From the NCBI GenBank assembly GCA_003223645.1, contig QHVT01000038.1, positions 1 to 34,502 on the forward strand: 34,502 nucleotides of DNA, in the 5' to 3' direction. This DNA is from Acidobacteriota bacterium (lineage in GTDB: Bacteria; Acidobacteriota; Thermoanaerobaculia; Gp7-AA8). Within the stretch, counting starts at the first letter, position 1. Every line of letters starts with the position of its first letter. This document shows positions 3,606 through 24,999 of this stretch, in pieces. The notes under the pieces are model-generated. The model saw only the letters and a program-made list of their open reading frames with translations. It was not told the origin of the DNA and ran no database searches. A program made the position numbers and the translations under genes.

Positions 3606-3632
3606 GCCTCTCTGCCTCTCTGCCGCTCTCTA

Positions 3633-3680
3633 GAAAAAGAAAAGGCCCGACCCCCTGAACAGGAAAGAGGAGGCCGGGCC
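3633..3680 (-). terminator. Strong intrinsic terminator for the leftward portal operon
   Basis: Read leftward, the sequence forms a stem GGCCCGGCCTCC paired with GGGGGTCGGGCC (one G-T and one C-side wobble allowed) around a loop of about 13 bases, followed at once by TTTTCTTTTTC. This is a textbook rho-independent terminator. It separates the packaging/portal genes from the small-protein/scaffold/capsid genes. Confidence 0.85.
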
Positions 3681-3815
3681 GCATGACCGCTCGTTCACGA
3701 GTGAGACGGTCGTTGGTGCCCCGATGGACGACACCCTGCTGGTAGAGCAGCGGGTGCTAGTTGGAGAGCGTGAGGCTAAGTGCCGGAGTTTGTCAAGCGG
3801 TTCTCGATCGGACTC
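3681..3815 (-). promoter_or_regulatory. Spacer with a perfect -35 element, possible leftward promoter
   Basis: Leftward, a consensus TTGACA lies at 3796-3791. No good -10 is visible at the usual 16-18 base distance; the nearest is TAGCCT only 12 bases downstream. The stretch also has short inverted repeats, for example CTGCT-GGTAG-AGCAG near 3747-3761 and CTCGTTCACGAG near 3690. Any transcript begun here would first meet the terminator at 3633-3680, so this could be an attenuated or anti-terminated start for the capsid genes. The function is uncertain. Confidence 0.3.
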
Positions 3816-4082
3816 TCAAGCCGACGCCTTGGCTTTGGCAAGGACGATGTCGTCGGCGGTCGGCTCGAACGGGCAGCTGGGCTCGACGGCAGGCCCGACG
3901 CCGGGCTCGACCTCGACCACGATCGGCTTGCCCGCCTCGAGCAGCTTCGGTTGCCCCGATCGGTAGTGCAGGGTCAGGCTGCCGGTGTAGCGCTCCTGCC
4001 GGATGACCGAATCGAGCAGCCGTAGATCGATGGGTTGGTGCCGGGCGGCGTAGCGCTGGAGCAGGTCGGTGAGGCGGGACAT
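3816..4082 (-). CDS. 88-aa phage protein of unknown function
   Basis: The product begins MSRLTDLLQRYAARHQPIDL, a likely helix, and continues with a beta-type stretch (YTGSLTLHYRSGQPKLLEAG, then KPIVVEVEPG) before an acidic helical tail. The start at 4082 shares one base with the stop of the 34-aa membrane protein upstream (TGATG), so it is coupled to it. It is the last gene before the terminator. I do not recognise the family; a reading frame extending further upstream is rejected because it overlaps the membrane protein and portal in a poor-quality sequence. Confidence 0.65.
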   Translation of the reverse strand: MSRLTDLLQRYAARHQPIDLRLLDSVIRQERYTGSLTLHYRSGQPKLLEAGKPIVVEVEPGVGPAVEPSCPFEPTADDIVLAKAKASA

Positions 4083-4186
4083 CAGCGGCGCTCCCGGCGC
4101 TCGAGCCAGATGAAGAGGAGGCTGGTGCTGACGACACCTGTGAGAAACGCGATGCCGACGACTTCCCACGGGCAGGACAGGATCAC
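4082..4186 (-). CDS. 34-aa single-pass membrane peptide, GTG start
   Basis: The peptide has one hydrophobic segment (about residues 9-28, VVGIAFLTGVVSTSLLFIWL) and a short basic end, LERRERR, that would stay in the cytoplasm. It starts with GTG, which overlaps the portal stop as GTGA, and ends by overlapping the next start as TGATG. Both junctions support a real coupled gene in spite of its size. Position after the portal gene suggests a small accessory membrane protein, but no function can be assigned. Confidence 0.65.
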   Translation of the reverse strand: MILSCPWEVVGIAFLTGVVSTSLLFIWLERRERR

Positions 4187-6372
4187 CGGCGGGACTCCGA
4201 CATCTTGATCCGTTCGCCACCGCCAGGGATCGGTTGCCGCTCGATCGACGGCGACTTCTGTGCAGTCGCTTTTCTCCCGGCGCCTTCGCGTGCGCCGCCC
4301 ATGCCGCCGCCGCCGCCCTGGGTCGGGTTGCCGCTCGACGCCGACGAGCCGGCCGGCCCGACCGTCATGCCGCCTCCGAAGAGCTGCATCTCCGCCTGGA
4401 GCCGCTCGGTGATCGTCGTCGGGACGCGCAGGGTCAGGAGCTGACCGGTGTTCGGATCGATCGACATATTCGGCACCAGGCCGGCGGCGACCGCTTCCAT
4501 GAGGGCCGGATCGGGTGGCGTGCCCTGCTCGTCAGACGGCAGCAGCATCAGCGGCGGGCTGCCGCCGTTGGGAATCTCGAGCTTCTCCCAGAGCGTCCAC
4601 CGGTCGCACAGGCCCGCCCGCGCGAGCTGCACATACTTCAGCTGCTCCGACTTGGCGTTGAGCGCGAGTAGCGAATTCGGCGTGACGTAGAAGGTGAAGA
4701 GCTGCAGGAAGAACTGCGCCCGGTCCTTCTGGTCGCGGTTCGAATCGAGCTCGGGGTGGTAGCCGGAATCGGTCGGGGCCATCGCCGGGATGAGGTTGCC
4801 CGGGTCGTAGTCGAAGTCGGCGAGCGTCATCCCGGCGTCGCCCAGGACCGCCATGCGCTTCTTCTGGTCGTAGAACTGGAAGATGTTCGCCTTCTGCATC
4901 TCGGCCAGCTCGCGCAGGCCGACCTCGACGCGCCGGCCTTCGAGCTTCATCTCCGGGGAGAGCGCGTTCATGAAGGCTTCGATCTGCTCGGGGTCGAACG
5001 ACTGGTTGGCGGCGGCCTGCTGCAGCGCGTCGAGCGTCGAGTCGCCGGTCGCTTCGTGGAAGGCGGTCCGGAGCGCCTGCCAGAGTTCGAGCGTGTAGGG
5101 CGGGAGATCCGGGATCTCGACCACCTGCAGGCCGGTGCCGACCTGCTCTTCGGTCCGGATGCGGGCGTTCGGCTTGAGCGGATCGAACTGTTTGAGCTTC
5201 GGTTCGCTGACGCGCGCGTTGCCGGCGAGCGGCGGACGCTTCTTCTGCCGGATGTCGTCGAGCATCGTGTTCAGCAGGTCGTTGATCGCGTCCTGGATCG
5301 GCAGGTTCGAATCGACGATCGGCACGCCGAAGAAGCTCCAGGGGACGTGATCGAGCTGCAGGCGCGCGCACGGAAACATGCCGTGCCAGTAGGTGTTCGG
5401 CCCGTCCCAGAGAATGCCGGCTTCGGTCGCGATGATCAGCCGCTTGCGTGGATAGAGGCGCCCGCCGGGCGGGACCATGTAGGACCACGAGACCCCCGCT
5501 GGTCCCATCAGGACGTTGTGCGCGGTCGTGTTGACCGAGGCGTCGTTGACGTAGCAGCGGTAGAGGATGACTTCGTTGCCGGTGAGGGTCGCCGGGCCGG
5601 AGTGGACCTTGGTCAGCCCCGAGAGGGTTGAGGTCGAGCCGCTGCCCATGATCCGGTTGAGCGCGCGCTTCCACTTGGTGAAGACCCCACCGCCCCAGGG
5701 CGACGCCGACTGCTGGAGCAGCGCCGGGTGGTTCGGATACATCTGTTTGAGGACATTGAGCGAATGCGCCTCACGGATGATCATGCCGAACCAGTTCTGG
5801 ACGCTGCCGTCTCGAGACGGACGGATCGGGATCGTGTCGCGGGGGTCTCGAGCGGACATGACGATGTCGCCCATCGGCCCGTAGTAGGGGTCGTATTCGC
5901 AGACGATGTCACCACTGCCGGCGACGAAGGCGTAGTCGGCGGCGTCGGCGAGCGCGAGATCAGCGAAGGTGTTGATCCAGTGGACGACGGTGAGCTGATT
6001 GAGCAGGAGCGATTGCTTCTGAAAGTTGGGGTTCGGCGTGCGGTAGGCGTAGACCGGCTTGAGGTCGGTCAGCGCCGAGATGTGGCGCTTGCGTGTGCGC
6101 TTGGTTTCGTTGAGGACCGCGTGGCTGACGTAGGCTGGCCGCAGCTCGGTGATCTGGAGCGCGCGCTGCCGGCCCATGATGTAATCCATGTTCCGGTCAA
6201 CGGTGTCCCAGGCCGGGTCCGCCTGCATGAACGCTTCGCCCTCGGCGACCGCTTCCTTGATCCAGTCGTGCACCGGGCCGGTCGTCTGCCCGGGCTTGAG
6301 GAAGGTCTCCGTCGCACGGAGTAGTGGGTTGTCTCGATTCGCCGACAGAGAAGTCAGGACTGCAGGGGCCAT
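4183..6372 (-). CDS. Portal protein (head-tail connector)
   Basis: At 729 aa this matches large portal proteins of podovirus-like phages, the dodecameric ring through which DNA is packed and ejected. Supporting features are the gene order (terminase, small proteins, portal, scaffold, capsid), an N-terminal helical region with WDTVDRNMDYIMGRQ-type sequence, a mixed core with a Trp/Pro-rich part (HVPWSFFGVPIVDSNLPIQD at about residues 360-380, typical of portal cores), long helices in the middle (about 450-520), and a flexible Gly-rich C-terminus that includes GGAREGAGRK. The ATG follows the upstream stop with no gap. The assignment is from size, context and family memory; exact domain borders were not computed. 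Confidence 0.85.
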   Translation of the reverse strand: MAPAVLTSLSANRDNPLLRATETFLKPGQTTGPVHDWIKEAVAEGEAFMQADPAWDTVDRNMDYIMGRQRALQITELRPAYVSHAVLNETKRTRKRHISALTDLKPVYAYRTPNPNFQKQSLLLNQLTVVHWINTFADLALADAADYAFVAGSGDIVCEYDPYYGPMGDIVMSARDPRDTIPIRPSRDGSVQNWFGMIIREAHSLNVLKQMYPNHPALLQQSASPWGGGVFTKWKRALNRIMGSGSTSTLSGLTKVHSGPATLTGNEVILYRCYVNDASVNTTAHNVLMGPAGVSWSYMVPPGGRLYPRKRLIIATEAGILWDGPNTYWHGMFPCARLQLDHVPWSFFGVPIVDSNLPIQDAINDLLNTMLDDIRQKKRPPLAGNARVSEPKLKQFDPLKPNARIRTEEQVGTGLQVVEIPDLPPYTLELWQALRTAFHEATGDSTLDALQQAAANQSFDPEQIEAFMNALSPEMKLEGRRVEVGLRELAEMQKANIFQFYDQKKRMAVLGDAGMTLADFDYDPGNLIPAMAPTDSGYHPELDSNRDQKDRAQFFLQLFTFYVTPNSLLALNAKSEQLKYVQLARAGLCDRWTLWEKLEIPNGGSPPLMLLPSDEQGTPPDPALMEAVAAGLVPNMSIDPNTGQLLTLRVPTTITERLQAEMQLFGGGMTVGPAGSSASSGNPTQGGGGGMGGAREGAGRKATAQKSPSIERQPIPGGGERIKMSESRR

Positions 6373-6846
6373 CTACGCTTTCGGTGCCTCTGACTCAGGA
6401 ATCGCCGCCGCGGTGATCGGCCTGCCCTGTGTGGTCCGCATCTGCCTGGGGTCGATCCGTTCGGACTTGTTCTTCTCGAGCACCGATCCCGAGAAGGTGT
6501 TGACGTGCCTGTTGGAGTGGTTCTGAGAGAAACCTCTGAAGACGATTGGCGAGCCGTCGCCGTTCCGAGATCGCCGGAGTGATTCGTTCTCGATGGTGCG
6601 AATCTCGCGCAGGGAGGAGACGGTCACCTCGCCGCCGTCGGCAGAAGTGACGTTCAGGCCCGTCCCGCCGGTGAGGAGGTCGTGCTGCATCGTCTCGGGA
6701 TAGATTTCCATCTCGGGAACGGTCGGGCAGTTCGGACAACGCGGCCATGCAGATACCCTGTTGTGATTCGCGTCATAAATCGGTGCGGCGTACCACGTCA
6801 TTCCGACGAAGCCACAGCGGGGGCAGAGGAAGCGCTGGCGAGGCAT
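6373..6846 (-). CDS. 157-aa zinc-ribbon protein
   Basis: The N-terminus carries two Cys pairs, CPRCG at residues 8-12 and CPNC at about 37-40, a zinc ribbon. The rest is polar, without a recognisable domain, and ends in a charged tail. Its start shares a base with the stop of the preceding gene (TGATG at 6844-6848) and its stop abuts the portal ATG. A role next to the portal, such as a head-completion or DNA-binding accessory, is only an inference from place. Confidence 0.7.
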   Translation of the reverse strand: MPRQRFLCPRCGFVGMTWYAAPIYDANHNRVSAWPRCPNCPTVPEMEIYPETMQHDLLTGGTGLNVTSADGGEVTVSSLREIRTIENESLRRSRNGDGSPIVFRGFSQNHSNRHVNTFSGSVLEKNKSERIDPRQMRTTQGRPITAAAIPESEAPKA

Positions 6847-7172
6847 CAGGCGACCTTGCCGTGGACTTCACAGTGAGGATCGTAGAGGAGTAACCGCGGG
6901 CGATCCTCGCCGCGGTCGATGCCGGTGCAGGTGCAGACGAGCAGACCCATCTCGCGGCAGCGGGTGACGCGCTCTTCGAACGATGGAACGTGATCAGGCG
7001 GTAGCAGCGCACCGTCGCGGGGGAGCCCCCACCACTCGCCAGTGATCCGCGACCGCTTCCGGCGCCAGTCGTCGTCGATGTCAGCGAGCGGCTCTGTCGG
7101 AAAGACTGCGTCAGGCAGTGGCATGATCAGGCCAACGATTCTCACGGCAGGACGGATCCGGCGCAGCTTCAC
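6846..7172 (-). CDS. 108-aa small Cys/His protein
   Basis: The C-terminal half has CREMGLLVCTCTGIDRGEDR and DPHCEVHG, four Cys and two His that could bind a metal. The middle part (DDDWRRKRSRITGEWWGLPR) is highly charged with two Trp. It is closely packed between the zinc-ribbon protein and the signal-anchored protein. The frame opens with GTG at 7172; an ATG 48 bases further in (7124) is an alternative start that would remove an Arg-rich leader. Not recognised as a named family. Confidence 0.6.
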   Translation of the reverse strand: MKLRRIRPAVRIVGLIMPLPDAVFPTEPLADIDDDWRRKRSRITGEWWGLPRDGALLPPDHVPSFEERVTRCREMGLLVCTCTGIDRGEDRPRLLLYDPHCEVHGKVA

Positions 7173-7175
7173 TCG

Positions 7176-7871
7176 TCATTGAACGTTCCAGCCCGAAATC
7201 GAAATCGACTCGACGAGGTTCGCCAGCAGGATCGAGAACTCTGCGGTCATCGCAGTGTTCGTCGTGCCGACGAGATTCAACCCGCAGATCGAGTAAGGTG
7301 GAACGTTCTGCCCGGTGGCATTCGCCGCCGCGAGCGCGTAGCTCCAGATGACCGTTCCCGCGCCGGTCGCGCCATCGCGGATGTTGATCGTCAGTGCGGT
7401 CAGCGCCGGCGCGGTGGTTGACGCGGCCGAGAACGCAACACAGTCGACGACGTGCCGGACCGAGCCTTCGGCGGCGATTGACGCGGTTGCTTGATTCGAC
7501 ACGGCAGGCGCCGAGACGACCGACCAGCGCGAGGAGTGCTCCATGACTGCGGCACCGACGGCGTTGCGTGATGTCAGGGTGACGGCAGTCGGAAAAGTCG
7601 CCAGCGCGGTGCCCTTGCGCCGGACCCACTGCGTCGTGTCCCACACCATCCCGTCGGCGCCGATCTGCGGAGCGGTCGGATTGCCGGACGTGTCCGAGAG
7701 CGCGGCCGCGGCGGTGACGGTGGTGCCCGACCACTGAGCGACGTTCTGTGGCATCGTCGGATACGTCGACGTCACGGTCGCCTGCTGCGCGACGAGCGCG
7801 GCGAAACCGCCAAGCGAAATGCCGATCGCGATCAGGAAGGCATAGAGGTGGCGCTGCGGGCTGCGTTCCAT
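7176..7871 (-). CDS. Signal-anchored beta-rich putative virion protein
   Basis: This 231-aa protein begins MERSPQRHLYAFLIAIGISL, a short basic head and a hydrophobic segment to about residue 29 ending GGFAALVAQQA, with a plausible signal-peptidase site after it. The rest is rich in Thr, Ser, Ala and Val with no charged helices, typical of a beta-sandwich (STTAPALTALTINIRDGATG and similar). It lies among head genes, so an outer capsid decoration or minor structural protein is likely, though an exported signal on such a protein is odd. The ATG at 7871 has AAGGA eight bases upstream; a TTG six bases earlier is less likely. Confidence 0.65.
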   Translation of the reverse strand: MERSPQRHLYAFLIAIGISLGGFAALVAQQATVTSTYPTMPQNVAQWSGTTVTAAAALSDTSGNPTAPQIGADGMVWDTTQWVRRKGTALATFPTAVTLTSRNAVGAAVMEHSSRWSVVSAPAVSNQATASIAAEGSVRHVVDCVAFSAASTTAPALTALTINIRDGATGAGTVIWSYALAAANATGQNVPPYSICGLNLVGTTNTAMTAEFSILLANLVESISISGWNVQ

Positions 7872-7884
7872 CGACAACGTCCTT

Positions 7885-8280
7885 TCAGGCGACCGTACGG
7901 AACAAATCCTGCGACATCCGCTGGTAGAGATCGGCGACGAGCTGCTCGACGGTGCGCCCGGTCTTCGTCGCGCGGAACTTCAGCTCTTCGAACTGGCCTG
8001 GCGTGATCTCGAAGCGGTGCTCGCCGAAATGGATCGCGGCAAGGCGGCGGACCTTCCCAACGAGGTCGCGTTCGGAGGTCAATGAGCCGCCACCGAGGAT
8101 ACCTTCGAGCTCCTGGAGCACTTGCGCGTCGGCGACGACGAAACCGCGGCGGCGCGGATCGAGCGGCAGCGCGGCCTGGAGGCGCTGTGCAATGACGGTG
8201 TTGACCGGGACTCTCCGCGAGCCCGCTTCCTTCTGGTAGGACTCGACCAGGTCGTCGTCGAGCGAGAGGGTGATCTTCAT
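7885..8280 (-). CDS. Ribbon-helix-helix-type DNA-binding protein
   Basis: The first 40 residues, MKITLSLDDDLVESYQKEAG and then SRRVPVNTVIAQRLQAAL, fit the ribbon-helix-helix (Arc/CopG) fold: an alternating strand followed by two short helices. A similar second strand-helix pattern (HRFEITPGQFEELKFRATKT, then GRTVEQLVADLYQRM) occupies the C-terminus, so the protein may contain two such units in one chain. It lies between the terminase nuclease and the anchored protein. It could be a late-gene repressor or a packaging-site binder. Family call is from pattern only. Confidence 0.65.
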   Translation of the reverse strand: MKITLSLDDDLVESYQKEAGSRRVPVNTVIAQRLQAALPLDPRRRGFVVADAQVLQELEGILGGGSLTSERDLVGKVRRLAAIHFGEHRFEITPGQFEELKFRATKTGRTVEQLVADLYQRMSQDLFRTVA

Positions 8281-8292
8281 CAGCCCGGCATT

Positions 8293-9276
8293 CTAGAGCA
8301 TATGTGGATTGGTCTCCCAGTCCGGCGAGTCGTAGAGGTCGGGCTGTCCCATCAGTTCTGCGTACGTGATATCAGTTGTCTGCGGCGTGATCGGATGCTT
8401 GTCCTGCTGCCGGCGCGCATCGAGCCGGGCGGATTCTTCACTCAGCCGGCGCCGGGTTTCGTGGATCGTCTCGCGGTAGCTCTGTTCCTTCCGCCCGGCG
8501 ACGAAGTTGCCAATCGCCGCCGACATCACGCAGTCGTCGAACGCACCCTCGGCCGCTTCCGCCATCCAGACCGGCCCCGGGCTGATGAAGGTCCGCAGCT
8601 CGCTGATGGTGAGCGGCGAGTTGAGGCGGAAGTCCGGCACGTTGCTGTGGGGATCGACGGTCTTGAGCGCGTGGTAGAGCTCCTGGATGATGATCGGCCG
8701 GGACTGCCGGGTCGTCCACCAGCCCAGTTTGGTCGTGTAGGATTTACTCAGGTCGCGGTTGTCGAGCACCTGCCAGATGTAGAGATTCGGATAGCCGATC
8801 CGCTTGAACAGGATGTCCTGCGTCGTCATGCCTGGCCCCTGCCCGCACTCGACGGCGACTTCTGCCGGAAGGTCGTCGCGGCCCTTGTAGAGCCGGCCGA
8901 TGGCATCGACGACGAAGGCCAGGTCGGACGGGTCGACCTGGTCGGTGACGAACTGCGCGACCTGCTCGTGCGGCTCGCGGATGGTGGCGACGCGGATGAC
9001 GTCGATGACCGAGCGGTCCAGGCCGATGCCGTTGCTGACGTCGACCGGGATGACGTAGAGGAAGCCCTTGCGGGGTGGCTCCCAGACGAGCAGGCGATCG
9101 AACAGGCCGGCGTCGTCAGGCTCGGCGAGGTGGGCACGCCATTCAGCAGGCTTGAGCGAGCGCATCCCGTAGCCGGGCGCGACCCGGTAGGGCGCGTCGG
9201 CGAGCGCGAGCTGGAGCGCCTGCTGGTTGAGCGAGAGGAGGGAGTCGTCGCGGGGGAAGGAGATGAAATCAGCCAT
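8293..9276 (-). CDS. Terminase large subunit, nuclease domain as a separate protein
   Basis: The 327-aa product carries the RNase H-like nuclease of the packaging motor, which cuts the DNA concatemer. Candidate catalytic acids are D79 in LYVIPVDVSNG, E143 in VAVECGQG, and D248/D249 in EGAFDDCVMSAA. The stretch KLGWWTTRQSRP is also usual for this domain. There is no Walker A motif; the ATPase half is encoded by a different gene at 9617-10882. The start overlaps the end of the twin-arginine-leader gene by eight bases. Separate coding of the two halves is clear from the sequence; that they act together is inferred. Confidence 0.85.
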   Translation of the reverse strand: MADFISFPRDDSLLSLNQQALQLALADAPYRVAPGYGMRSLKPAEWRAHLAEPDDAGLFDRLLVWEPPRKGFLYVIPVDVSNGIGLDRSVIDVIRVATIREPHEQVAQFVTDQVDPSDLAFVVDAIGRLYKGRDDLPAEVAVECGQGPGMTTQDILFKRIGYPNLYIWQVLDNRDLSKSYTTKLGWWTTRQSRPIIIQELYHALKTVDPHSNVPDFRLNSPLTISELRTFISPGPVWMAEAAEGAFDDCVMSAAIGNFVAGRKEQSYRETIHETRRRLSEESARLDARRQQDKHPITPQTTDITYAELMGQPDLYDSPDWETNPHML

Positions 9277-9559
9277 AGACGATCGGCACCTCGATCGTCC
9301 GGCCGTCGAAGCGTACTTGTGCCCTCTCCTTCAATTTTGCCAGGAACGGATCGGCGTTGGTATTGAAGAACTGTTCAATCGCTGGCAGATACCTTCGCAG
9401 CATCGCCGCGTTGATGTCGTCGAGCATGATTCGGTGAACGCCGTAGGTCGGCGGCACCACGATCAGCTGCTTCGGGATCCAGAGCAGCTTCTCGACGTCG
9501 AGCGTCGCGGCGATCGGGAGTGCGAGGAGCGAGCGCAGCATCGCACGGCGGGTCAGCAT
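9269..9559 (-). CDS. Small phage protein with twin-arginine-like leader
   Basis: From the ATG at 9559 the protein is 96 aa and begins MLTRRAMLRSLLALPIAATL, which looks like a Tat export signal (RR-x-M-L-R followed by a hydrophobic stretch), then EKLLWIPKQLIVVPP. Similar RR-leader proteins with a following EKLLWxP motif are known from many phage head regions, and their role is not established. A GTG at 9595 would add 12 residues ahead of the Arg pair and seems less likely. The gene lies exactly between the two terminase halves and overlaps the nuclease start. Confidence 0.7.
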   Translation of the reverse strand: MLTRRAMLRSLLALPIAATLDVEKLLWIPKQLIVVPPTYGVHRIMLDDINAAMLRRYLPAIEQFFNTNADPFLAKLKERAQVRFDGRTIEVPIVYG

Positions 9560-9616
9560 GGCTGGAAGTTTAACCCTCCCCCCCACCTTTTCCACTCCAC
9601 CCCAGATTTACACACG

Positions 9617-10882
9617 CTACACCCCAAGCTGCCGGTTCGTCTTGACCTCGACCATCCCGCACAGCGGTCGCTGCTGGCTCTTGATCCTCTCTATAGTTTT
9701 GACCGAGAAGATCGAGTGGCCGGCCATCTGGAAGGCTTCCTCGTCATCGGCCGGAAACTCCTGCAGGAAGTCGCTCAGCAGATCCTTGGCGTCGGCCTCC
9801 TCACGCGCCGTCTCGTACCAATAGAGCTGGTCGCGGGTGAGCGAAACCGGCCGGTGCATCCACCGCGGGCCGTATTCCTCGGCGCGGCGGGCGTGCGCGA
9901 GCGTCTCGGCGGACGGCGACCAGGAGAGCGGCGCCGGCAGCCGGTACTTGGCCGACTCGGCATACCAGGGAATGAAGATCGCGCGGAAGCGGCCCCGACC
10001 GGTCTTCGCGATCTGGAAGTCCTGGCACCAGTAGTTGCGCGGCCCCCAGCCCTGCGCGGTCGACTCCTTCGCGACGAACACGACCGGCGAGTAGGGCACG
10101 GTGGGGAGGAACGAGGAATCGATCTGCTGCGGGTTCGTCCAGGTCGCGATCTCCGAGAGGTGCGCGACCGCAACGGTCCGGCCGCGTCCGAGCTGCCCTT
10201 TCTTGCCTTCGATCGATCCCCGCTTCAACTTGTCGGCGCCGCGGGTGGATTTCGACGCCCCGACGAACAGCCGGCTTCCGGTGTCGTAGACGATCTCGTC
10301 GTTCTTGACACGCTCGACGACGGCGGGTTTCATCCACCAGGGCAGGTGATCGAGCTGCCGCTCGTACATGTCGTAGAGGAACGCCGAGTTGTCGGGCACG
10401 TCGGACGCGAGCAGGCCGAAGGTGTGCGGGTGCGTGGTGGTGCGGTGGCAGAGGATCGAGCTGCACAGGGTCGAGGCACCGAGCTGCCGGGCCTTGAGGA
10501 TGTCGATGAGCACGCCGTCGGGGTAGTGCGACTCGGTCCGTTCGAGCTGAATCCGGCCGATCTCGGCGAGGATCAGGCGCTGCGACTCCCACAGCGGATA
10601 GAGCGGGCCGATCGTCGAGGCTTCCAGGTTGATGGTCGAGTAGCGCTCGGCCCAGTAGCTGTAGTCGATGCGCGAACGGGTCCGCTCGGAGAAGACGAAG
10701 TAGAGCTCTTCGGGTGTGAGCATCCGCTGCTGCTCGCCGCGGTCGTTGAAGACGTCAGCGAGCCGCGTGCGCCAGTGAGGAATGTCTTCAGGCGGGATGT
10801 CGAGCAAGCCTTGAGGGAGCCGATCGGCGAAGGTGGCTTCGAGCGAGGCGCGGGTGCGGTCGACGAGGATCTGGGAATACAG
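9617..10882 (-). CDS. Terminase large subunit, ATPase domain, probable CTG start
   Basis: This is the motor half of the large terminase, which drives DNA into the head. The Walker-A-like loop LKARQLGASTL is near residue 130 and the Walker B region TVAVAHLSEIATW near 236-248, followed by a coupling-type segment (SPVVFVAKESTAQG). The protein ends at 421 aa without a nuclease domain. The frame stays open upstream to a CTG at 10882, directly after the stop of the TerS-like gene, and an AGGAGG lies five bases before that CTG. No ATG is available nearby; the first other option is a TTG at 10807, which lacks a ribosome binding site. I therefore favour the CTG start. Confidence 0.85.
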   Translation of the reverse strand: MYSQILVDRTRASLEATFADRLPQGLLDIPPEDIPHWRTRLADVFNDRGEQQRMLTPEELYFVFSERTRSRIDYSYWAERYSTINLEASTIGPLYPLWESQRLILAEIGRIQLERTESHYPDGVLIDILKARQLGASTLCSSILCHRTTTHPHTFGLLASDVPDNSAFLYDMYERQLDHLPWWMKPAVVERVKNDEIVYDTGSRLFVGASKSTRGADKLKRGSIEGKKGQLGRGRTVAVAHLSEIATWTNPQQIDSSFLPTVPYSPVVFVAKESTAQGWGPRNYWCQDFQIAKTGRGRFRAIFIPWYAESAKYRLPAPLSWSPSAETLAHARRAEEYGPRWMHRPVSLTRDQLYWYETAREEADAKDLLSDFLQEFPADDEEAFQMAGHSIFSVKTIERIKSQQRPLCGMVEVKTNRQLGV

Positions 10883-11824
10883 TTACGCCTCCTCAGACGG
10901 CGGTTCATCGGATTCCGGTGACGTCGATTCGCTCTCCACAATCCTTCTCCCGAACCGGTCTCGATTCTTCCCGTCCAGTGCCTGATCCAGCTCCATCACA
11001 CTCGAGTTGAAGCTGGGCGCAGTACCCTCGCCGAACTTCGTCGCGACGAATACGTTGTTGGTCCCGCCAGGTTTGTCGAGCAGCTTCCCGATCTGTAACG
11101 CCACTTTTCGCAGCTCGGTTTCTGGTCTGTAAGGCACGGTGCCGGTGCCGTCGCAGGTCTTACAGATGCGTGGGACCGGTGACGGATTCTGCGGGGTCGG
11201 GTCGTCGAGGAGCTGGCGCAGACCGCGGCAGACCGGGCAGGTGCGATCGGACGGGATCGCATCCGCCATCAGCCCGGCGGCCACTTCAGGGAGCCGCTCG
11301 CCGACCGCGACGAGCGCGTGGACCTGGCCCCGGATGAGCGCGGCGTCCTTCACGAAGTCCAGCAGCCGGCGCAGCGAGACGCGCGAGAACGCGCACAGCT
11401 GCGCCAGGCTGGTGTTGTCGTTGGCCGGATCGACCAGCATCGCCGCCAGGTGGAGATCGCGTGCGGGCACGTCGGCCGCCGCGAGCAGGGCGGCGAGCTG
11501 CTGCCGGCCGCCGAGCGCGACCTCGAACGAGGCAAACTGGGCTTCTTCGGATGGGGTGAGCGACGCGGCGGCGTTCGACCGCGAGAGCGGCTGCTGTTTC
11601 GGCAGGCCGCGGTGGTGATGTGACGGATGTTCACTCTCGCTGCGGAAGCCAGAGAGGAGTGGATTGTTCCTGATGCCTGCGAGCACGGCTTCGCCTGCCT
11701 TCTCGGCCTGCTCCTTCGGGAAACGCTTTGCGTGCCCGTGCACGAACTTCGAGGGCGGCGGGCAGGGCGGCGGCAGCGGCGACTGCGGCGGCAGCGGCGA
11801 CTGCGGCGGCTGTTCGTCAGACAT
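10883..11824 (-). CDS. Putative small terminase / packaging DNA-recognition protein with zinc finger
   Basis: The 313-aa protein has a Pro/Gln-rich N-terminus (PPQSPLPPQSPLPPPCPPP), a helical region with an HTH-like unit (TSLAQLCAFSRVSLRRLLDF, about residues 139-158), then a DnaJ-like zinc centre (CPVCRG and CKTCDGTGTV, about 206-241), and a C-terminal helix and acidic tail. Its place immediately before the terminase ATPase and its HTH suggest the small terminase, which recognises the packaging site. The start at 11824 overlaps the upstream gene; a longer frame upstream is rejected because it runs through that gene. Function is inferred. Confidence 0.6.
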   Translation of the reverse strand: MSDEQPPQSPLPPQSPLPPPCPPPSKFVHGHAKRFPKEQAEKAGEAVLAGIRNNPLLSGFRSESEHPSHHHRGLPKQQPLSRSNAAASLTPSEEAQFASFEVALGGRQQLAALLAAADVPARDLHLAAMLVDPANDNTSLAQLCAFSRVSLRRLLDFVKDAALIRGQVHALVAVGERLPEVAAGLMADAIPSDRTCPVCRGLRQLLDDPTPQNPSPVPRICKTCDGTGTVPYRPETELRKVALQIGKLLDKPGGTNNVFVATKFGEGTAPSFNSSVMELDQALDGKNRDRFGRRIVESESTSPESDEPPSEEA

Positions 11825-12083
11825 GCCGGCGCCTCGATCTTCCCAGCTTGGACCGGCTGACGCGCTCGACCCGGAGCTGCAGTTCGAACAGGAAGCACTG
11901 CAGGCAGCCGTGGCACACGCGCTGTTTGACGGTCCGCATGACGTCGTTCCAGGGCACGGTGGCCGCAGGGTGCCATGCGCCGCAGATCGCCCGGTCGCGG
12001 CGGCCGCGCAGGATGTGGAGGGCCGGAGCATGGAGGACAGGAGCGTCAGCCAGGGGAGCGTCAGCCAGGGGAGCGTCAGCCAT
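11817..12083 (-). CDS. 88-aa Cys/His protein with repeated N-terminus
   Basis: The N-terminus reads MADAPLADAPLADAP, the product of a 15-bp tandem repeat, followed by RAICGAWHPAATVPWNDVMR and RVCHGCLQCFLFELQLRVER. The Cys and His residues (C39, C63, C66 and C69 by count) suggest a small zinc-binding protein of the kind often found before terminase genes. The stop overlaps the next start. Only a weak GGCGG precedes the ATG. The repeat means the true ancestral N-terminus may be shorter. The function is unknown. Confidence 0.6.
   Translation of the reverse strand: MADAPLADAPLADAPVLHAPALHILRGRRDRAICGAWHPAATVPWNDVMRTVKQRVCHGCLQCFLFELQLRVERVSRSKLGRSRRRHV
12041..12082. repeat. 15-bp tandem repeat, 2.8 copies
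   Basis: The unit GAGCGTCAGCCAGGG occurs at 12041-12055 and 12056-12070 without change, then partially to 12082. It encodes the LADAP repeats at the start of the 88-aa protein, so each unit adds five residues in frame. Confidence 0.95.
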
Positions 12084-12111
12084 CCGCCGGAGTGTAGATC
12101 ACTCGGGATGA

Positions 12112-12138
12112 TTCAGTCGCTTCAGTCGCTTCAGTCGC
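12112..12138. repeat. 9-bp tandem repeat, 3 perfect copies
   Basis: TTCAGTCGC is repeated three times with no mismatch. It covers the last codons and the stop of the 122-aa gene and the short gap after it. Copy-number change would move the place of the stop codon only by whole codons. Confidence 0.95.
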
Positions 12139-12499
12139 CGTAATGGACTGGCAGCGTGCAGAGCTGCCCGTCGCGGTCGACCCAGCCGCGTGCGGCCGCG
12201 ATCTTCTCGACATCGGTGTTGTCGTCAACGGAGAGGTGGGCTTCGCGGCAGAGCGTCTCCAGGATGTCGCGCCGCAGCCAGCCGCTCTCTTCTGATTCGT
12301 AGTGCGGGATGACGCGCTCGGCTTCGATGTCGATGGATGGCTCGTCCTTCGCCACCGTGAACTGCGGCTGCTGCCCGTTGGCGATCCGGAACGAGTCAGT
12401 CGCGATCTCGAGCGTCCGGTTCAGGTGTCTGATTTCTTTCAGCAGGAGCAGCAGGACGCCGAGGATAGTCTTGCGTGCAGCGGTCTCGAGGATCCTCAC
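12131..12499 (-). CDS. 122-aa protein with N-terminal hydrophobic helix
   Basis: Residues 8-22 (RKTILGVLLLLLKEI) are hydrophobic and lead into a helix (RHLNRTLEIATDSFRIANG) that looks like a membrane-proximal coiled segment. The C-terminal half has an acidic, helical part (ESEESGWLRRDILETLCREA) and ends in LPVHYGD. The start is GTG at 12499, with no strong ribosome binding site, so the exact start is open. The gene lies between the lysis-type proteins and the packaging genes. Spanin-like or accessory roles are possible but nothing proves them. Confidence 0.6.
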   Translation of the reverse strand: MRILETAARKTILGVLLLLLKEIRHLNRTLEIATDSFRIANGQQPQFTVAKDEPSIDIEAERVIPHYESEESGWLRRDILETLCREAHLSVDDNTDVEKIAAARGWVDRDGQLCTLPVHYGD

Positions 12500-12753
12500 C
12501 GAAGGGAGAGTCTACACGAGGCGCCGACAGGTGGCACCGGCGGACGGCCGCGTCGAGGTCGGCGAGGTACTGATGCGTTTCCGGACGGATGAGGCCACTG
12601 AGCATTGAGGCTGCCGAGCATCCCAGGCAGTCTAGCAGGTGCATCGAGCAGGCGGCCATGACGCTGCCACTCCAGACGCACGCTGCGACGTGCCGGGACA
12701 CTCAGCCGGACCTCAGTGCCAGAGCACCTCAGTGTCCCCAGATGGACGTCACC
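12500..12753. other. Gap without a confident gene
   Basis: A leftward frame with an ATG near 12660 (MAACSMHLLDCLGCSAASML, then LIRPETHQYLADLDAAVRRC) is open here, but it runs about 100 bases into the next gene before stopping and has no ribosome binding site. I do not call it. Short direct repeats such as CTCAGTG flank 12710-12735. No promoter or terminator is evident. Confidence 0.5.
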
Positions 12754-12831
12754 TTAACGCGGCCCGCTGTAGAGGAGCCGGCCGAGGATCTCACCAACCG
12801 CCAGGCCGAGCGAGGCGAGGAAGCGTTTCAT
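12754..12831 (-). CDS. 25-aa peptide, last gene of the small membrane-protein cluster
   Basis: The peptide MKRFLASLGLAVGEILGRLL-YSGPR has a basic start and an amphipathic or hydrophobic middle. It is supported mainly by its ATG overlapping the stop of the 51-aa gene (ATGA at 12828-12831), the same coupling seen at the junction before it. It could be a holin partner or a toxin-like lysis peptide. At this length chance cannot be ruled out. Confidence 0.5.
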   Translation of the reverse strand: MKRFLASLGLAVGEILGRLLYSGPR

Positions 12832-12983
12832 CGCACCGCTCCTGCCGCGGTCGAAGCTGCTGCGGGCTTCGCCTGGTTCGCCTGATGCTGCGCGGCGACC
12901 GCGTCCACGATCGCCTTGATCACGTCCGGGTGATCGGCGGCCCAGAGCGCGATCCGCGCGAGGATCTTCGCGAAGCCGTTCAC
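12828..12983 (-). CDS. 51-aa amphipathic small protein, GTG start
   Basis: The product MNGFAKILARIALWAADHPD-VIKAIVDAVAAQHQANQAKP is helical, with a hydrophobic face, and ends in an Ala-rich tail. Its GTG start overlaps the holin candidate's stop as GTGA (12980-12983), and its own stop overlaps the 25-aa peptide. The three are therefore likely translated together. It may modulate the holin, but there is no direct evidence for this. Confidence 0.65.
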   Translation of the reverse strand: MNGFAKILARIALWAADHPDVIKAIVDAVAAQHQANQAKPAAASTAAGAVR

Positions 12984-13204
12984 TGCGCCACCGGCTGCGT
13001 CGCTCTGAGCTGCAGCGGCTGGGTGGTCTTGAACCGCAGCACGATGTTGATGACGGCGAGCGACAGCATGTACCACTGCGGGTCGGCCGGCAGGATGTTG
13101 CCGTAGAAGTGCTGGTAGAGCGCGATCCCGAGTGCAACGACGTTGGCCCGGATGGTCCGGCTCTTCGCGCTGGCGCCGATGAACTGAACGATTGCTTGGA
13201 TCAT
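12980..13204 (-). CDS. Holin-like membrane protein
   Basis: The 74-aa product has two hydrophobic stretches (about residues 21-40, RANVVALGIALYQHFYGNIL, and 45-60, YMLSLAVINIVLRF) separated by a short polar turn with PADPQW, and a basic end. The pattern K-x-RT-x-xANVxxLxIxxxQxFYGxxLPADPQW is familiar from small phage holin families that place pores in the inner membrane for lysis. No endolysin is seen nearby, so the name depends on topology and family memory. No good ribosome binding site precedes the ATG. Confidence 0.6.
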   Translation of the reverse strand: MIQAIVQFIGASAKSRTIRANVVALGIALYQHFYGNILPADPQWYMLSLAVINIVLRFKTTQPLQLRATQPVAQ

Positions 13205-13215
13205 GGATGTTGTGG

Positions 13216-13242
13216 TGACGTGGCTGACGTGGCTGACGTGGC
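13216..13242. repeat. 9-bp tandem repeat, 3 perfect copies plus decayed copies
   Basis: TGACGTGGC is repeated at 13216, 13225 and 13234, then continues in decayed form (TGATGTGC, CTGACGTGC) to about 13262. It lies directly upstream of the holin candidate and covers the place where its ribosome binding site should be or just beyond it. Confidence 0.9.
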
Positions 13243-13644
13243 TGATGTGCTGTCTGACGTGCTATCCGAGAAGGCGAGGTTCTGCCTCGCTCGTGGCGTT
13301 GGTTGCTTGAGAAGGGCAAAGAGAGAGAGAGAGAGAGAAGGCCCAGTCCCGCCTGCATGGCCCCCCACCATCCGACGACGCAGAATTGCGCCACGGATTC
13401 ATCCAGGACGAGCCGGGTATTGTCTCTGTTATCGGCTGAGTCGGCGTGAGCTGTAGCCCGGCCGCAGGTGTGTCAAAACGGGACAGAGCCGCTGCTCGAG
13501 TGTGGCGGAAACGGGACGCACGAATGACCAGTCTCAACCGGTGTCACTGGCCTGCTTTCGACCGCCGGGTTTCCCGACCCTCTCCAGCAGCGCGTCCCGC
13601 CTAGCAGACTATCGGCCAGTCAGACGTCGGTGGTGCCCGGTGCG

Positions 13645-13824: not shown

Positions 13825-13920
13825 TTAGAGGTGGTCGAGGAGCCAGGCGAAGGCGATCAGGAACACGACGAGGACGAGGACGAGCAGGAGTGGCTTGGCG
13901 AATCCCAGGATCTCCGTCAT
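13825..13920 (-). CDS. 31-aa single-pass membrane peptide
   Basis: The peptide MTEILGFAKPLLLVLVLVVF-LIAFAWLLDHL is almost entirely one membrane helix with charged ends. Its ATG overlaps the stop of the XRE regulator as ATGA (13917-13920), and a purine-rich GAGGAG lies just before. Such coupling of a tiny membrane protein to a regulator gene recalls small phage proteins that act at the host membrane, for example superinfection or toxin-like peptides, but there is no motif to choose among these. Confidence 0.65.
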   Translation of the reverse strand: MTEILGFAKPLLLVLVLVVFLIAFAWLLDHL

Positions 13921-14210
13921 GCCGGCTCCTCCCACTGGTCGGCCGGCAGCCCGGTCTGCTGCTCCATCCACCGGCCGATCTTCGCCAGCCGGGCGTCGCC
14001 CTTGCCGACGACCTTGCCGTGGAGCAGGAGCGACAGGATTGACCGGTCGATGCCGGCCCGTCCGGCGATCTGGTAGAAGCGGAGGCCGGTCGTCTTCTGA
14101 TGCTCGCGGATAGCCTCCCGGAGACGGCGCGACATCCGGACGGGTTCCTTGTAAGGATCGTTGATCGGGGCGAGCGGGCTTCCACTGTTGAGCGTTCGAA
14201 TATCAGACAT
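13917..14210 (-). CDS. XRE/Cro-type helix-turn-helix regulator
   Basis: The 97-aa protein has an HTH of the lambda-repressor kind at about residues 29-80: RRLREAIREHQKTTGLRFYQ, IAGRAGIDRSILSLLLHGK, then LAKIGRWMEQQTGLPADQW. Proteins like this bind palindromic operators as dimers. It lacks a peptidase or oligomerisation domain, so it is more like Cro or an accessory regulator than a full CI repressor. Upstream, GAAGACT is doubled just before the ATG. It may act on the palindromes at 15680-15735; this is a hypothesis. Confidence 0.8.
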   Translation of the reverse strand: MSDIRTLNSGSPLAPINDPYKEPVRMSRRLREAIREHQKTTGLRFYQIAGRAGIDRSILSLLLHGKVVGKGDARLAKIGRWMEQQTGLPADQWEEPA

Positions 14211-14821: not shown

Positions 14822-15117
14822 GCTGTCACCTCTCCTTCTGTCACCGCTCCTTCTCCCCGCCGATCATGCCCTCGCCGATCTTCCGGGTGCCTTCGCTCGA
14901 CGTCGCGTCGGTCGCCGTGCCGTCTGGCCTCCATGCTTCGGCGGTCGGTCTCTCCCCTTAAGCGGCGGTCCTCGATCGTCCAGCCGCCGGTCCGCAGGCC
15001 GCACTCGTGGCACCGCAGATACATCCGGTTGCCCTGGCGCTCGACGACTGGATCGTGGCGCCCGTGCAGCCGACAGTTCAGATGAGTGAGCCAGGCCGGC
15101 CAGCGCATCGCAGCCAT
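14818..15117 (-). CDS. 99-aa zinc-binding phage protein with Arg-rich tail
   Basis: The N-terminal half reads HLNCRLHGRHDPVVERQGNR-MYLRCHECGLRTGGWTI. It contains Cys and His pairs (C-x2-HGRHD, C-x2-C) that suggest a zinc ribbon. The C-terminal half is a long run of Arg, Asp, Glu and His repeats (RRHGDRRDVERRHPEDRRGH), highly charged and probably disordered, and might bind nucleic acid. The stop overlaps the next start as ATGA. Small proteins with this N-terminus are familiar from phages, without known role. Confidence 0.65.
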   Translation of the reverse strand: MAAMRWPAWLTHLNCRLHGRHDPVVERQGNRMYLRCHECGLRTGGWTIEDRRLRGETDRRSMEARRHGDRRDVERRHPEDRRGHDRRGEGAVTEGEVTA

Positions 15118-15162
15118 CTTAGGGCAGGTCTGTCCACTCGTATCCGCTCGTCCGTTCGATCG

Positions 15163-15429
15163 TTAGTGCATCCGACTGCGCCCCGCCTCCCCGACCCAAC
15201 ATCCCTGCCGCGCCTCCCGCCTCAGCCGGTTCTGCTCCCGCCCCTCTGCCGTCTCCTCCCGTTCCAGCCACGCCTCGTAAGGGTTTGGCTGCTTGGGACG
15301 GGTGTCTTCCATCGTCCGCCACCGCAAGATGCGCCCGCCGGTGACCCAAATCAGCATCCCCGCGGCTGTCCCGAGGACACTGATGACCGCCCCGACCGCG
15401 ACGATGAACAGAAATACGGTCAGCACCAT
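15163..15429 (-). CDS. 88-aa single-pass membrane protein, first gene of the leftward operon
   Basis: The N-terminus MVLTVFLFIVAVGAVISVLG-TAAGMLIWVTGG is one long or two short membrane helices, followed by a charged cytoplasmic part with PKQPNPYEAWLEREETAEGR-EQNRLRRE. It is the first gene after the control region and has GAGAGG nine bases before its ATG. A second frame near its end (27 residues, ending GYEWTDLP just before the next gene) could be a separate tiny gene or sign of a frameshift. The function is unknown. Confidence 0.7.
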   Translation of the reverse strand: MVLTVFLFIVAVGAVISVLGTAAGMLIWVTGGRILRWRTMEDTRPKQPNPYEAWLEREETAEGREQNRLRREARQGCWVGEAGRSRMH

Positions 15430-15451
15430 CTGTGGCTACCTCTCAACGAGG

Positions 15452-15479
15452 AGCATAGCTCAACAGCACCTCCAGTGAA
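15452..15479 (-). promoter_or_regulatory. Leftward promoter for the 15429-13825 operon
   Basis: Read leftward there is TTCACT (15479-15474), a 16-base spacer, and TATGCT (15457-15452), each matching the sigma-70 consensus at four of six places. Long A/T tracts lie immediately upstream (15482-15518), as in promoters with an UP element. Transcription would start about 15 bases before the first gene. Confidence 0.45.
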
Positions 15480-15481
15480 CC

Positions 15482-15518
15482 AAAAATTTTTAGAAAATTT
15501 GAAAAATTTGAAAAATTT
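15482..15518. repeat. A-tract tandem repeat patch
   Basis: AAAAATTTTT is followed by GAAAATTT and two copies of GAAAAATTT (15501-15509, 15510-15518). The period of 8-9 bases and the A/T purity stand out in a GC-rich sequence. Curved DNA, an UP element or an unwinding site are all possible. Confidence 0.85.
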
Positions 15519-15679
15519 CGCTGGAAAAAATGGCTAGATTCAGCGCCGTCCCCGGCGCCTATGCCCGGCCGCATCTGCGGACATTCAGCCGAGCGGCTCG
15601 ACGTCGAGCGGCTCGAGCGGGGCGAGCGCCGCGGTCGAGGTCCAGGCGGCCGGCGAGCGGCGCGCTCGTTCGTCGTTCG

Positions 15680-15735
15680 TTAGCTCTGCTAAGCAGTTTT
15701 GTTAGGTGTGCTAAGCGGTTCGTTAGCTCTGCTAA
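15680..15735. promoter_or_regulatory. Three-site operator array (13-bp palindromes)
   Basis: TTAGCTCTGCTAA occurs at 15680-15692 and 15723-15735, with the close variant TTAGGTGTGCTAA at 15702-15714. The centres are 22 and 21 bp apart, two helical turns, so dimers would bind on the same face of the DNA as in phage repressor operators. Site three covers the stop codon of the broken regulator gene. Likely binders are that regulator's intact ancestor or the XRE protein at 13917-14210. Confidence 0.7.
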
Positions 15736-15966
15736 GTAGCCGCGTCGAGCTGGCGCCAGCTGCGCCGCGACACGATCGCGCGGATGGTTGAAGCCGTGAC
15801 GTCGAACAGCCCAGCAAGCGAAGACTGCGCGACGCCAGCCGCCGCGAGCCGCCGCGAGCCGCCGGATCTCTGCTACCTCGTCGAGCGTCAGTTTGTGCCA
15901 GCCGCTCAACCTCACTCGTCCTGGGAGTGGCGATCTCACCTGATGTGTCCGCGTCCGTGTCGTCAT
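15732..15966 (-). pseudogene. Helix-turn-helix regulator broken by a 10-bp tandem duplication
   Basis: The gene starts at the ATG at 15966 and reads MTTRTRTHQVRSPLPGRVRL, then GWHKLTLDEVAEIRRLAAA. After this the frame changes: the natural continuation GVAQSSLAGLFDVTASTIRA, IVSRRSWRQLDAAT and the stop at 15732-15734 are in another frame. At the break lies CTCGCGGCGG repeated twice without a gap. Removing one copy gives a single 74-aa frame with a clean HTH. The frame as it stands runs on to 15559 as a nonsense tail of Ala and Arg. It is therefore a recently inactivated gene, or one switched by repeat slippage, or an assembly error. Confidence 0.8.
15839..15858. repeat. 10-bp tandem duplication that causes a frameshift
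   Basis: On the plus strand CCGCCGCGAG is present twice in direct contact (15839-15848, 15849-15858), followed by CCGCCGG. Ten bases are not a multiple of three, so the copy number decides whether the HTH gene is open. Confidence 0.95.
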
Positions 15967-16027
15967 GCCAAGTCCCTACCACATCTGTTCGGTAACTGTC
16001 CAGTCTATTCACCCAGCAACTTTCCGC

Positions 16028-16057
16028 TCGACACCTGACAGGTCTTGAGCGTAATCT
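16028..16057 (+). promoter_or_regulatory. Rightward early promoter with palindrome in the spacer
   Basis: TCGACA (16028-16033), an 18-base spacer and TAATCT (16052-16057) form a modest promoter. The spacer contains the perfect 11-bp palindrome ACCTGACAGGT (16033-16043), well placed for a repressor. The first rightward gene starts 75 bases downstream. Confidence 0.35.
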
Positions 16058-16131
16058 TAGCCCGCGGCCGAGCATCCCGCCGGCCAACGGATGAGTAGTG
16101 AGAACAGCCAGACCACAGGAGTTGGCACGAT

Positions 16132-17229
16132 ATGGCAAACGATCTAACGATGCATCGGCAATGGGCCACCCGCCCCGACGACGAACGATTTTCGACACTC
16201 GACGCCATGCACCAGCACCTTGCGACCGAGGCGCAGCAGTGCCGAACGGTGCAAGTCGACACCGACATGATCCGGGTTATCCCCAACGGAGAGAACGGGT
16301 TAGCCGTCGTCGGCAAGACCGGCAACGCGGCTGAGCTAACCCACTGGAGTCTGACCCAAACGGCCGCCATCGCGTCTTCCCCAGCAGCGTATTTAAGGCA
16401 ATTGCCCGCAACGCTCGCAGCGGACTGCCTGAACTACGGCCTGAGTGTCGCGCCGCGGGCCAGTCACCAGCTTTACATCCAGCAGAAGCCGGCCAACGGT
16501 GCGCCAGCGCACCTGGAGCTCAGAGCGCTTACCTCGCCGGGCTACAGCCGAGTGCTGACGGCGAACGTGGTCGACCGGCTGCGGCAACTGCAGCAGCAGA
16601 ACCCGGACTGGCAGGCGCCGATGGTGTACCGCCGCGGGGACTTTGGCGGCGCCAAAGAGCCGTGCGCGGGCTTCAGCGGCGACAGAGATGCCTACATCTG
16701 CCTGCAGAACGAAAGCGTCGGCATCGCGGACCCGGCCGCGCCCGGCGAGCACCTGACGCGGTTCGTGCTGCTGGTGAACAGTGAGGTCGGGGCGAAGAAG
16801 CTCGATCTCACGCTCGGCCTGTGCGAAAGAATCTGCGGAAATTTCATCATCTGGAATGCGCGGCGGCTGGCGACGTTCAGCGCGCGACACTTCGGGGACC
16901 GGATCAAGCGGGAGTGGTCGAGAGGGATCGGCACGGTGTTCTCGGATTACGCGCAGCTCAGCGCGACCGAGGAAACCGCCAAGCTTCAGGCCGCGCACGT
17001 CCGGCAGCTCGGCCCGAAACGCGACGACGTGATCGATCTGCTGTTCAAGAAAGAGATCGCCACGCGCCAGCAGCTCGGCGACGCGTACGACATGGCCGAG
17101 CAGCACGACCGGAACCCGCGAACCGCGTGGGGTATCGTCCACGGCCTGACGCGACTGTCGCAGCTCAGCCCGTATGCCGACGAACGGCTCGACCTGGACC
17201 GCGCGGCGGCCAAGGTGCTCGACTTCTAA
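16132..17229 (+). CDS. DUF932 family phage/plasmid protein
   Basis: This 365-aa protein fits the DUF932 family, which is common on phages and plasmids and has no proven biochemical role; some members are linked to DNA recombination or host takeover. Family-like parts include RVIPNGENGLAVVGKTGNAA-ELTHWSLTQTA near residue 50-75, YLRQLPATLAADCLNYGLS at about 86-104, and LCERICGNFIIWNARRLATF-SARHFG at about 229-254. AGGAG lies ten bases before the ATG. It is the first gene of the rightward block and stands alone, followed by a strong hairpin, so it may be expressed strongly and early. Confidence 0.75.
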   Translation: MANDLTMHRQWATRPDDERFSTLDAMHQHLATEAQQCRTVQVDTDMIRVIPNGENGLAVVGKTGNAAELTHWSLTQTAAIASSPAAYLRQLPATLAADCLNYGLSVAPRASHQLYIQQKPANGAPAHLELRALTSPGYSRVLTANVVDRLRQLQQQNPDWQAPMVYRRGDFGGAKEPCAGFSGDRDAYICLQNESVGIADPAAPGEHLTRFVLLVNSEVGAKKLDLTLGLCERICGNFIIWNARRLATFSARHFGDRIKREWSRGIGTVFSDYAQLSATEETAKLQAAHVRQLGPKRDDVIDLLFKKEIATRQQLGDAYDMAEQHDRNPRTAWGIVHGLTRLSQLSPYADERLDLDRAAAKVLDF

Positions 17230-23967: not shown

Positions 23968-24999
23968 TTAGTTTGCTTTCGCCCTTTGGTACTGGCCGTG
24001 TGCAGGCTGCTCGACCCAGCCGCCGGCCAGCAAACGATCGAGGCTGTGGCGAGCCGTTCCTTCGGGAATACCGGCCGCTTCGGCGGCTTCCATCAACTCG
24101 CTGCGCCAAGTAGGGACGAGGGGAACGAGGCCATAGAACTGGACATCGCGGGGATCGATCGCCTCGGCGCCCGCGTAGAACTCGAAGTGGCTGTTGTTCC
24201 GAGTGAGCCGTGCCATTCCCCACGGAATGTGCCGCGGCTTCCAGCCGAACTCGTACCAGCTCTCCTTCGCGTCGGGAGCTGGGTCGACGATCCACAGCGC
24301 GTTGTCCGAGAAGTGGAACCAGGCGCCGGCCCCGTTGAACCGCTCCCAAGGCCGAGCGTAACGCTGGCCCCGGTCGGTCTTTTCCTTGTTGAAGTGCTGG
24401 AGGAAGATCGTCGTGATCCCGTAGTCCTCCTGCGCGCGCGTAAGCCGGATGATCGAGGCCGCAACCGCACGCCGGTCGCCATCCTCGCCCTTGACGAAGA
24501 ACGGGGAGAACGGGTCGATGATGAGCACCGAGCCGGGAATGGGACGGAGCTTCAGCAGAACATGGTCGAGCAGGGCAGCGGCGTTGTCCGGCTCGGAAAT
24601 CCATTCCAGGCGGAGTCCTGATGTTCGGCTGATAATGGAATAAAACGTGACGTCGTCGTCGAACCCACCCAGCTCCTTGTAGAACGTCTTGGCGGACTGC
24701 GATCGGTCGCCTTCAACGTAGTAGACATGCGCCGGCTTGTGTGCTGGTCGATTGAGGAATGGCTGCTCCGTGTACCAGCACCGAATGAGCTGCTTCAGGA
24801 GGGTCGATTTTCCCGCGCCGCCAGGTCCGCCAAACAGGGTCGATTGCCTGAACGGAATCAAGTCGACGAGCGGATCTCCGTGTGTGAATTCCAGTGAGAC
24901 CTGTGGGTGCAGCTGATTCTCTGGCGGGGTTGGTGCAGGGATACGCGAGGGGCTGGGTTTCTCCTCTTGATCTTTTGACCTAGCTGTAGTATTCCTCAT
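23968..24999 (-). CDS. RepA-like hexameric replicative helicase (RecA-fold AAA)
   Basis: This 343-aa protein has a Walker A loop GGPGGAGKST at residues 57-66, Walker B VLIIDPF at 158-164, and QHFNKE at 201-206, the conserved Gln/His motif of RepA/DnaB-type helicases. The C-terminus (about 305-340, MEAAEAAGIPEGTARHSLDR-LLAGGWVEQ) is a winged-helix or HTH unit that could bind DNA. The protein probably unwinds DNA at the replication fork or loads at the origin. It runs leftward against its neighbours, with probable regulatory gaps at both ends. GAGG precedes the ATG. Confidence 0.8.
   Translation of the reverse strand: MRNTTARSKDQEEKPSPSRIPAPTPPENQLHPQVSLEFTHGDPLVDLIPFRQSTLFGGPGGAGKSTLLKQLIRCWYTEQPFLNRPAHKPAHVYYVEGDRSQSAKTFYKELGGFDDDVTFYSIISRTSGLRLEWISEPDNAAALLDHVLLKLRPIPGSVLIIDPFSPFFVKGEDGDRRAVAASIIRLTRAQEDYGITTIFLQHFNKEKTDRGQRYARPWERFNGAGAWFHFSDNALWIVDPAPDAKESWYEFGWKPRHIPWGMARLTRNNSHFEFYAGAEAIDPRDVQFYGLVPLVPTWRSELMEAAEAAGIPEGTARHSLDRLLAGGWVEQPAHGQYQRAKAN

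Follow-up and report, generated by a model that had tools for sequence, protein, structure and literature searches.

The DNA analysed here, referred to as the window, is an entire contig (C38) of 34,502 bp from a 6.38-Mb assembly that comprises 51 contigs, and judging by its predicted genes it is phage-like (Table 1). The feature under study, a minus-strand HTH gene broken by a tandem repeat, sits between leftward open frames (for example, 15163-15429) and the DUF932-like gene at 16132-17229, the DUF932 match of which (19.6 bits) lies below the Pfam cut-off of 23. Farther away, the terminase large subunit appears in two separate open frames with a gap of about 340 bp, and two such frames (967-2085 and 2263-3399) are likewise found in the comparison contig IMGVR_UViG_3300046795_000078 (hereafter L019). 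A small protein at 13917-14210 matches part of the DNA transposition family phrog_296, looks HTH-like by eye, and appears by eye to have a counterpart in L019 at 6747-7091. Moreover, a 138-aa open frame on the plus strand (2683-3099) gave weak HNH-like matches to a SBSphiJ2 protein (E 6e-4) and to the L019 HNH endonuclease (E 0.006), and it coincides with a region of the window, about 2.75-3.14 kb, that gave a weaker match of HNH type. No sigma-70-like promoter or terminator was found in 15100-16250, and Rfam gave no match at the gathering threshold in 14900-16300.

Table 1. Features of the window and their coordinates (in order of position)
Feature	Position	Strand	Remarks
Weak portal match	4183-6372		E 1e-4
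Terminase pieces	8293-9276 and 9617-10807	minus	
A+T-rich block with 9-bp repeats (AAAATTTGA, 15494-15518)	15478-15530		next to the array; L019 has a shorter A+T-rich block that aligns with it (by eye)
Present open frame, 135 aa	15559-15966	minus	unmatched in Pfam, PHROGs and NCBIfam
Array of three TTAGC-N3-GCTAA copies	15679-15739		two exact and a third with a single mismatch; spacings of 22 and 21 bp
HTH gene, 3' part (other frame)	15732-15857	minus	...GVAQSS...RRSWRQLDAAT; stop 15732-15734
Perfect period-10 tandem repeat, 28 nt, 2.8 units	15837-15864		in the minus-strand gene; one-base frame shift
HTH gene, 5' part	15844-15966	minus	ATG 15964-15966, AGGGA six bases upstream; ends ...EIRRLAAA
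DUF932-like phage protein, phrog_1362	16132-17229	plus	divergent neighbour of the broken gene; comparison anchor
AAA/helicase-like protein	23968-24999		
HNH_3 endonuclease gene	30635-31102	plus	separate; without an HTH tail of the broken-gene type

Within the period-10 repeat, positions 15839-15848 and 15849-15858 both read CCGCCGCGAG on the plus strand (CTCGCGGCGG on the minus strand), and a partial third unit then follows; this is the sole adjoining pair of CCGCCGCGAG in the window. From the ATG at 15966, the minus-strand frame runs as MTTRTR...IRRLAAA, beyond which the HTH reading departs from it. The rest of the domain lies in the other frame, which carries ...RRLAAAGVAQSSLAGLFDVTASTIRAIVSRRSWRQLDAAT and in which no ATG, GTG or TTG is found between the preceding stop and GVAQ. 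Hence the HTH domain is split over two frames, where a whole one in a single frame would be expected of a phage transcription regulator, and the removal of one 10-bp unit joins both frames as a single 74-aa protein. The unit lies within the reading frame and its length is not a multiple of 3, as would be expected of a phase-variable locus. In fact, among the 14 perfect tandem repeats in the window with units of 9-39 bp, the unit length is divisible by 3 in 13 (three of which are simple runs of a triplet, and one or more of which, including 15494-15518, are non-coding), with the period-10 repeat as the sole exception. These observations confirm the preliminary description in placing the halves of an HTH protein in different frames at two adjoining 10-bp copies (15839-15858), to which the partial third unit is now added. 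They also bear out its prediction that taking out one copy gives a clean 74-aa protein, with a whole HTH domain that fits public profiles across the junction. The range that it gave, 15732-15966, holds for the HTH parts, but the present open frame reaches lower, to 15559.

The joined protein matched the profile phrog_20467 with 33.9 bits, its residues 23-71 falling on profile positions 60-108 (49 on 49), as compared with 23.6 bits when the 3' part is taken by itself. It also matched phrog_517 (28.8 bits) and, with residues 23-58 on positions 2-37, Pfam HTH_38 (23.2 bits, below the curated cut-off of 27). The present frame of 135 aa matched nothing in Pfam or PHROGs. With our own HTH profile, built from 15 relatives, the joined protein scored 69.2 bits, a version with one base skipped 60.1, the 3' part alone 46.9, the 5' part alone 22.0, and the present frame 20.2, though this profile favours the joined protein by construction because 14 of its 15 members were found with that protein (the remaining member is the L019 sequence). 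When the window was scanned with it in six frames (841 segments of at least 15 aa), the top two segments were both frames of this gene (46.9 and 20.2 bits) and the next scored 6.0 bits, while the top score among 60 sequences randomised by a first-order Markov model was 11.5 bits. Judged by these scores, the predicted HTH signal across the junction exceeds chance. Both halves fit the HTH domain undamaged apart from the duplication. A search of the PDB by sequence gave no clear relative (best E 0.014). At the first, second and third codon positions, the G+C content is 0.65/0.57/0.70 in one half and 0.70/0.65/0.82 in the other, which fits poorly with six genes of the contig (0.61-0.67, 0.43-0.51 and 0.74-0.90, respectively), and so the HTH gene may be a newcomer or may already have been decaying before the duplication.

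As for the relatives of the joined protein, it was matched by 22 phage and 6 plasmid records. Of the 26 matches listed, 13 carry an endonuclease annotation, a figure that includes some duplicate records, and the rest include small HTH proteins. The preliminary description had spoken of a regulator gene; the HTH character stands, but given these endonuclease annotations the role as a regulator is unproven. Eight of the 15 relatives that we inspected are annotated HNH endonucleases, and in seven of the eight the match lies at most 5 residues from the C-terminus. The others comprise two 87-aa mycobacteriophage HTH proteins, two unnamed longer proteins, one match lying mostly upstream of an annotated gene, and two that are unannotated there but whose frames look HNH-like by eye. 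Here, the joined protein resembles the endonuclease class in carrying an HTH of the phrog_20467 type at its C-terminus, as is also borne out by its alignment with the 15 relatives, but there is no HNH catalytic domain in the same gene, and Pfam gave no HNH family for the joined protein. Moreover, tblastn with the 15 relatives found no minus-strand match for an HNH part beside the broken gene, near 15.7-16.1 kb, and its sole plus-strand HNH match near the gene (15901-15963) is at chance level (E 0.88). Among the viral_contigs, single-protein patterns of the joined protein picked up 95 stretches, none a relative, and a search with alignment A5 picked up 33 stretches, including one relative (L117). 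A side observation from the ORF list of L117 is that a stand-alone 65-aa HTH ORF (1144-1341) overlaps a separate HNH-like ORF (1338-1787) by 4 nt, an arrangement that looks like an endonuclease divided into two genes. Because this 65-aa ORF and the 87-aa mycobacteriophage proteins exist, the gene of the window may likewise have encoded a stand-alone small HTH protein. Such a free-standing protein is a real possibility, and an endonuclease remnant is one as well.

Two contigs allowed a comparison with the surroundings of the gene. The DUF932 protein of L019 is 79% identical to that of the window, and 18 aligned blocks occur in the same order on both sides of the site. Nevertheless, the main blastn search of the window against L019 gave no block between window 14445 and 16131, and in a finer search of 15300-16200 only 16019-16084 aligned; by eye, the A+T-rich block and CGGACATTCA correspond in a MAFFT alignment. 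At the syntenic place, L019 has neither an HTH ORF of this type nor a three-site array, and the only clear HTH of this type that it carries forms the tail of an HNH endonuclease of 204 aa (8641-9255), which lies beyond the A+T-rich block. Before the DUF932 gene of L019, positions 9812-9866 are also rich in palindromes (around ATTCTCTAGAGAAT, by eye), but these are different ones and not the array of the window. The other contig, IMGVR_UViG_3300006791_000004 (L020), aligns with window 27-13303 at 99.91% identity (13,277 bp, 12 mismatches and 0 gaps) and ends 2.5 kb short of the repeat site. Five tandem repeats in 27-13303 (units of at least 9; repeats longer than the one at the site) have an equal copy number in L020, their units all being multiples of 3. 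This indel-free match argues mildly against both an assembly error and fast slippage.

Wider searches were made with the gene and its surroundings. Among the ORFs of loci L012-L101, our HTH profile scored above 30 bits in four contigs, namely L019 (identical with L021 and L022), L091, L025, and L087. The exact flanks of the repeat with a gap of 0-30 had 0 matches in the viral_contigs, from which records very near the genome of the window may be left out. Not one of 147 further genomes from the class gave a one-unit sequence (E 1e-5), and two of 395 other genomes of the phylum (E 1e-3) gave a match, both weak. As no one-unit sequence was found, it is the family profiles that point to a one-unit ancestor. 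An 801-bp stretch gave DNA matches in 30 of 59 other genomes (E 4e-6 to 1e-3), which were rejected as not being the locus on account of their lengths, mostly 26-80 bp; in the phage collection there was no DNA match. In genome_contigs, the DUF932 protein picked up 26 stretches and the terminase 31, with 0 relatives in either case.

The preliminary description had also set the gene beside a three-site operator array. The array is real and far above chance: 0.14 occurrences of its motif with at most one mismatch are expected in the window, and its two exact sites are the only exact matches in the whole assembly when no mismatches are allowed. However, it is located at the 3' end of the gene and not at its start, the final site overlapping the last codons and the stop of the HTH 3' part. 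Its layout would fit either the operator of a phage regulator or replication-origin repeats. Nothing links the broken HTH gene to the array, for which the HTH-like predicted protein at 13917-14210 is as good a candidate. The idea of a host LexA box was dropped, the exact motif being confined to the array in the assembly and the only LexA match lying on another contig. Also dropped was the idea that such an array accompanies DUF932 genes: among 83 loci (window included) for which the upstream sequence spanned 300 bp or more, 6 passed a test for repeats with loose settings, and by eye a palindromic array is seen at the window alone, another high scorer being a GCT triplet run, with none of the 82 other loci having a convincing array.

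Taken together, we consider this feature to be, probably, a phage HTH gene that was recently inactivated by a tandem duplication. The original product would have been a small HTH protein, either free-standing or the leftover of an HNH endonuclease without its catalytic part. Duplication of a short unit beside a partial copy is a common result of replication slippage, and it is probably by this route that the 10-bp unit was doubled. The one-base shift removes the second half of the DNA-binding domain, and with this shift and no usual start codon in the 3'-part frame, loss of function is judged the most likely outcome. Such a loss would be tolerated because the gene is presumably accessory; on the best reading of its sequence, the gene would be dispensable, whether an HTH gene or an endonuclease remnant. 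That there is no damage beyond the duplication suggests a young, if undated, break. Of the outcomes left side by side in the preliminary description, recent loss is therefore favoured, a slippage switch is without positive support beyond the repeat itself, and an assembly error is less likely.

Largely overlapping with this explanation is a possible, though doubtful, reading in which the HTH part is a non-coding tail left after deletion of a nuclease and never a working protein, so that the duplication was neutral in a dead gene. It would agree with the many HNH endonucleases among the relatives, with the whole L019 endonuclease bearing such a tail, with the weak codon-position signal, and with the stretch before KLT, which by eye resembles an endonuclease linker (the DumpsterDude match runs from 15921 to 15847). 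It agrees less well with the AGGGA that precedes the start codon, the lack of other damage, and the existence of small stand-alone HTH proteins of this type in L117 and mycobacteriophages. That the phage really carries a single unit and an intact HTH gene, the second unit being an assembly or sequencing error, is unlikely: two units are indeed known from a single assembly, but the gapless match with L020, which stops short of the site and may or may not be independent, makes indel errors look rare in the contig, and a repeat of 28 nt is shorter than ordinary sequencing reads.

Quite improbable, too, is an on/off switch in which the number of 10-bp units would vary reversibly in the phage population and toggle the HTH protein. 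Here, one unit fewer does give a whole domain, and tandem-repeat copy number is reported to be phase-variable in Mycobacterium tuberculosis promoters (PMC12817950). Against this, the repeat has only 2.8 units, no other unit number was seen (with no second copy of the site found), the five repeats shared with L020 keep their copy number, albeit with units that are multiples of 3, and the HTH gene is absent from the syntenic place in L019. Very unlikely is the more elaborate version, in which a one-unit minority of phages would make the HTH protein and this would bind the three-site array, slippage choosing between two regulatory states. Should reads hold both forms, a DNA-binding gene of a phage would be controlled by slippage, and this would be directly testable. 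Least credible of all is a programmed frameshift, whereby the ribosome would skip one base in the repeat and produce a 77-aa protein with three extra residues; such a version still scores well against our profile, but the three-residue insertion worsens the fit relative to the one-unit reading, and by eye the repeat shows no slippery motif familiar to us. Read as a recent inactivation, the site is a clear example, from an uncultivated phage, of a reading frame disrupted by a short tandem duplication, and it shows that operator-like repeats next to such a frame do not by themselves imply a switch.

In comparison with known systems, the window gene shares with phase-variable tandem-repeat loci the unit in the reading frame that is not a multiple of 3, but many classical loci of this kind have longer runs of short units, whereas there are 2.8 units here. 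There is also a likeness to I-TevIII of T4, which is described as a phage homing endonuclease inactive through a large deletion (PMC2988022), a degraded nuclease gene with a working relative in another phage; in contrast, the break in the window gene is a 10-bp duplication, and no homing is claimed for it. Closer in sequence are the HTH tails of phage HNH endonucleases (phrog_20467), such as Gordonia phages DumpsterDude gp62 and Bradissa gp60, in which the same gapless HTH pattern lies near the C-terminus; these proteins are 195 aa each (about 190 for the class), as against 74 aa for the window gene, with its broken frame. Likewise small and of the HTH type are the stand-alone phage proteins (phrog_517) Naca gp42 and PetterN gp44 of Mycobacterium phages and the L117 ORF, which, unlike the window gene, have whole frames and adjoin a gene for thymidylate synthase or, alternatively, an HNH-like ORF. 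Here, the L117 ORF ends in IVSRRSWKHI, comparable to the end of the 3' part in the window.
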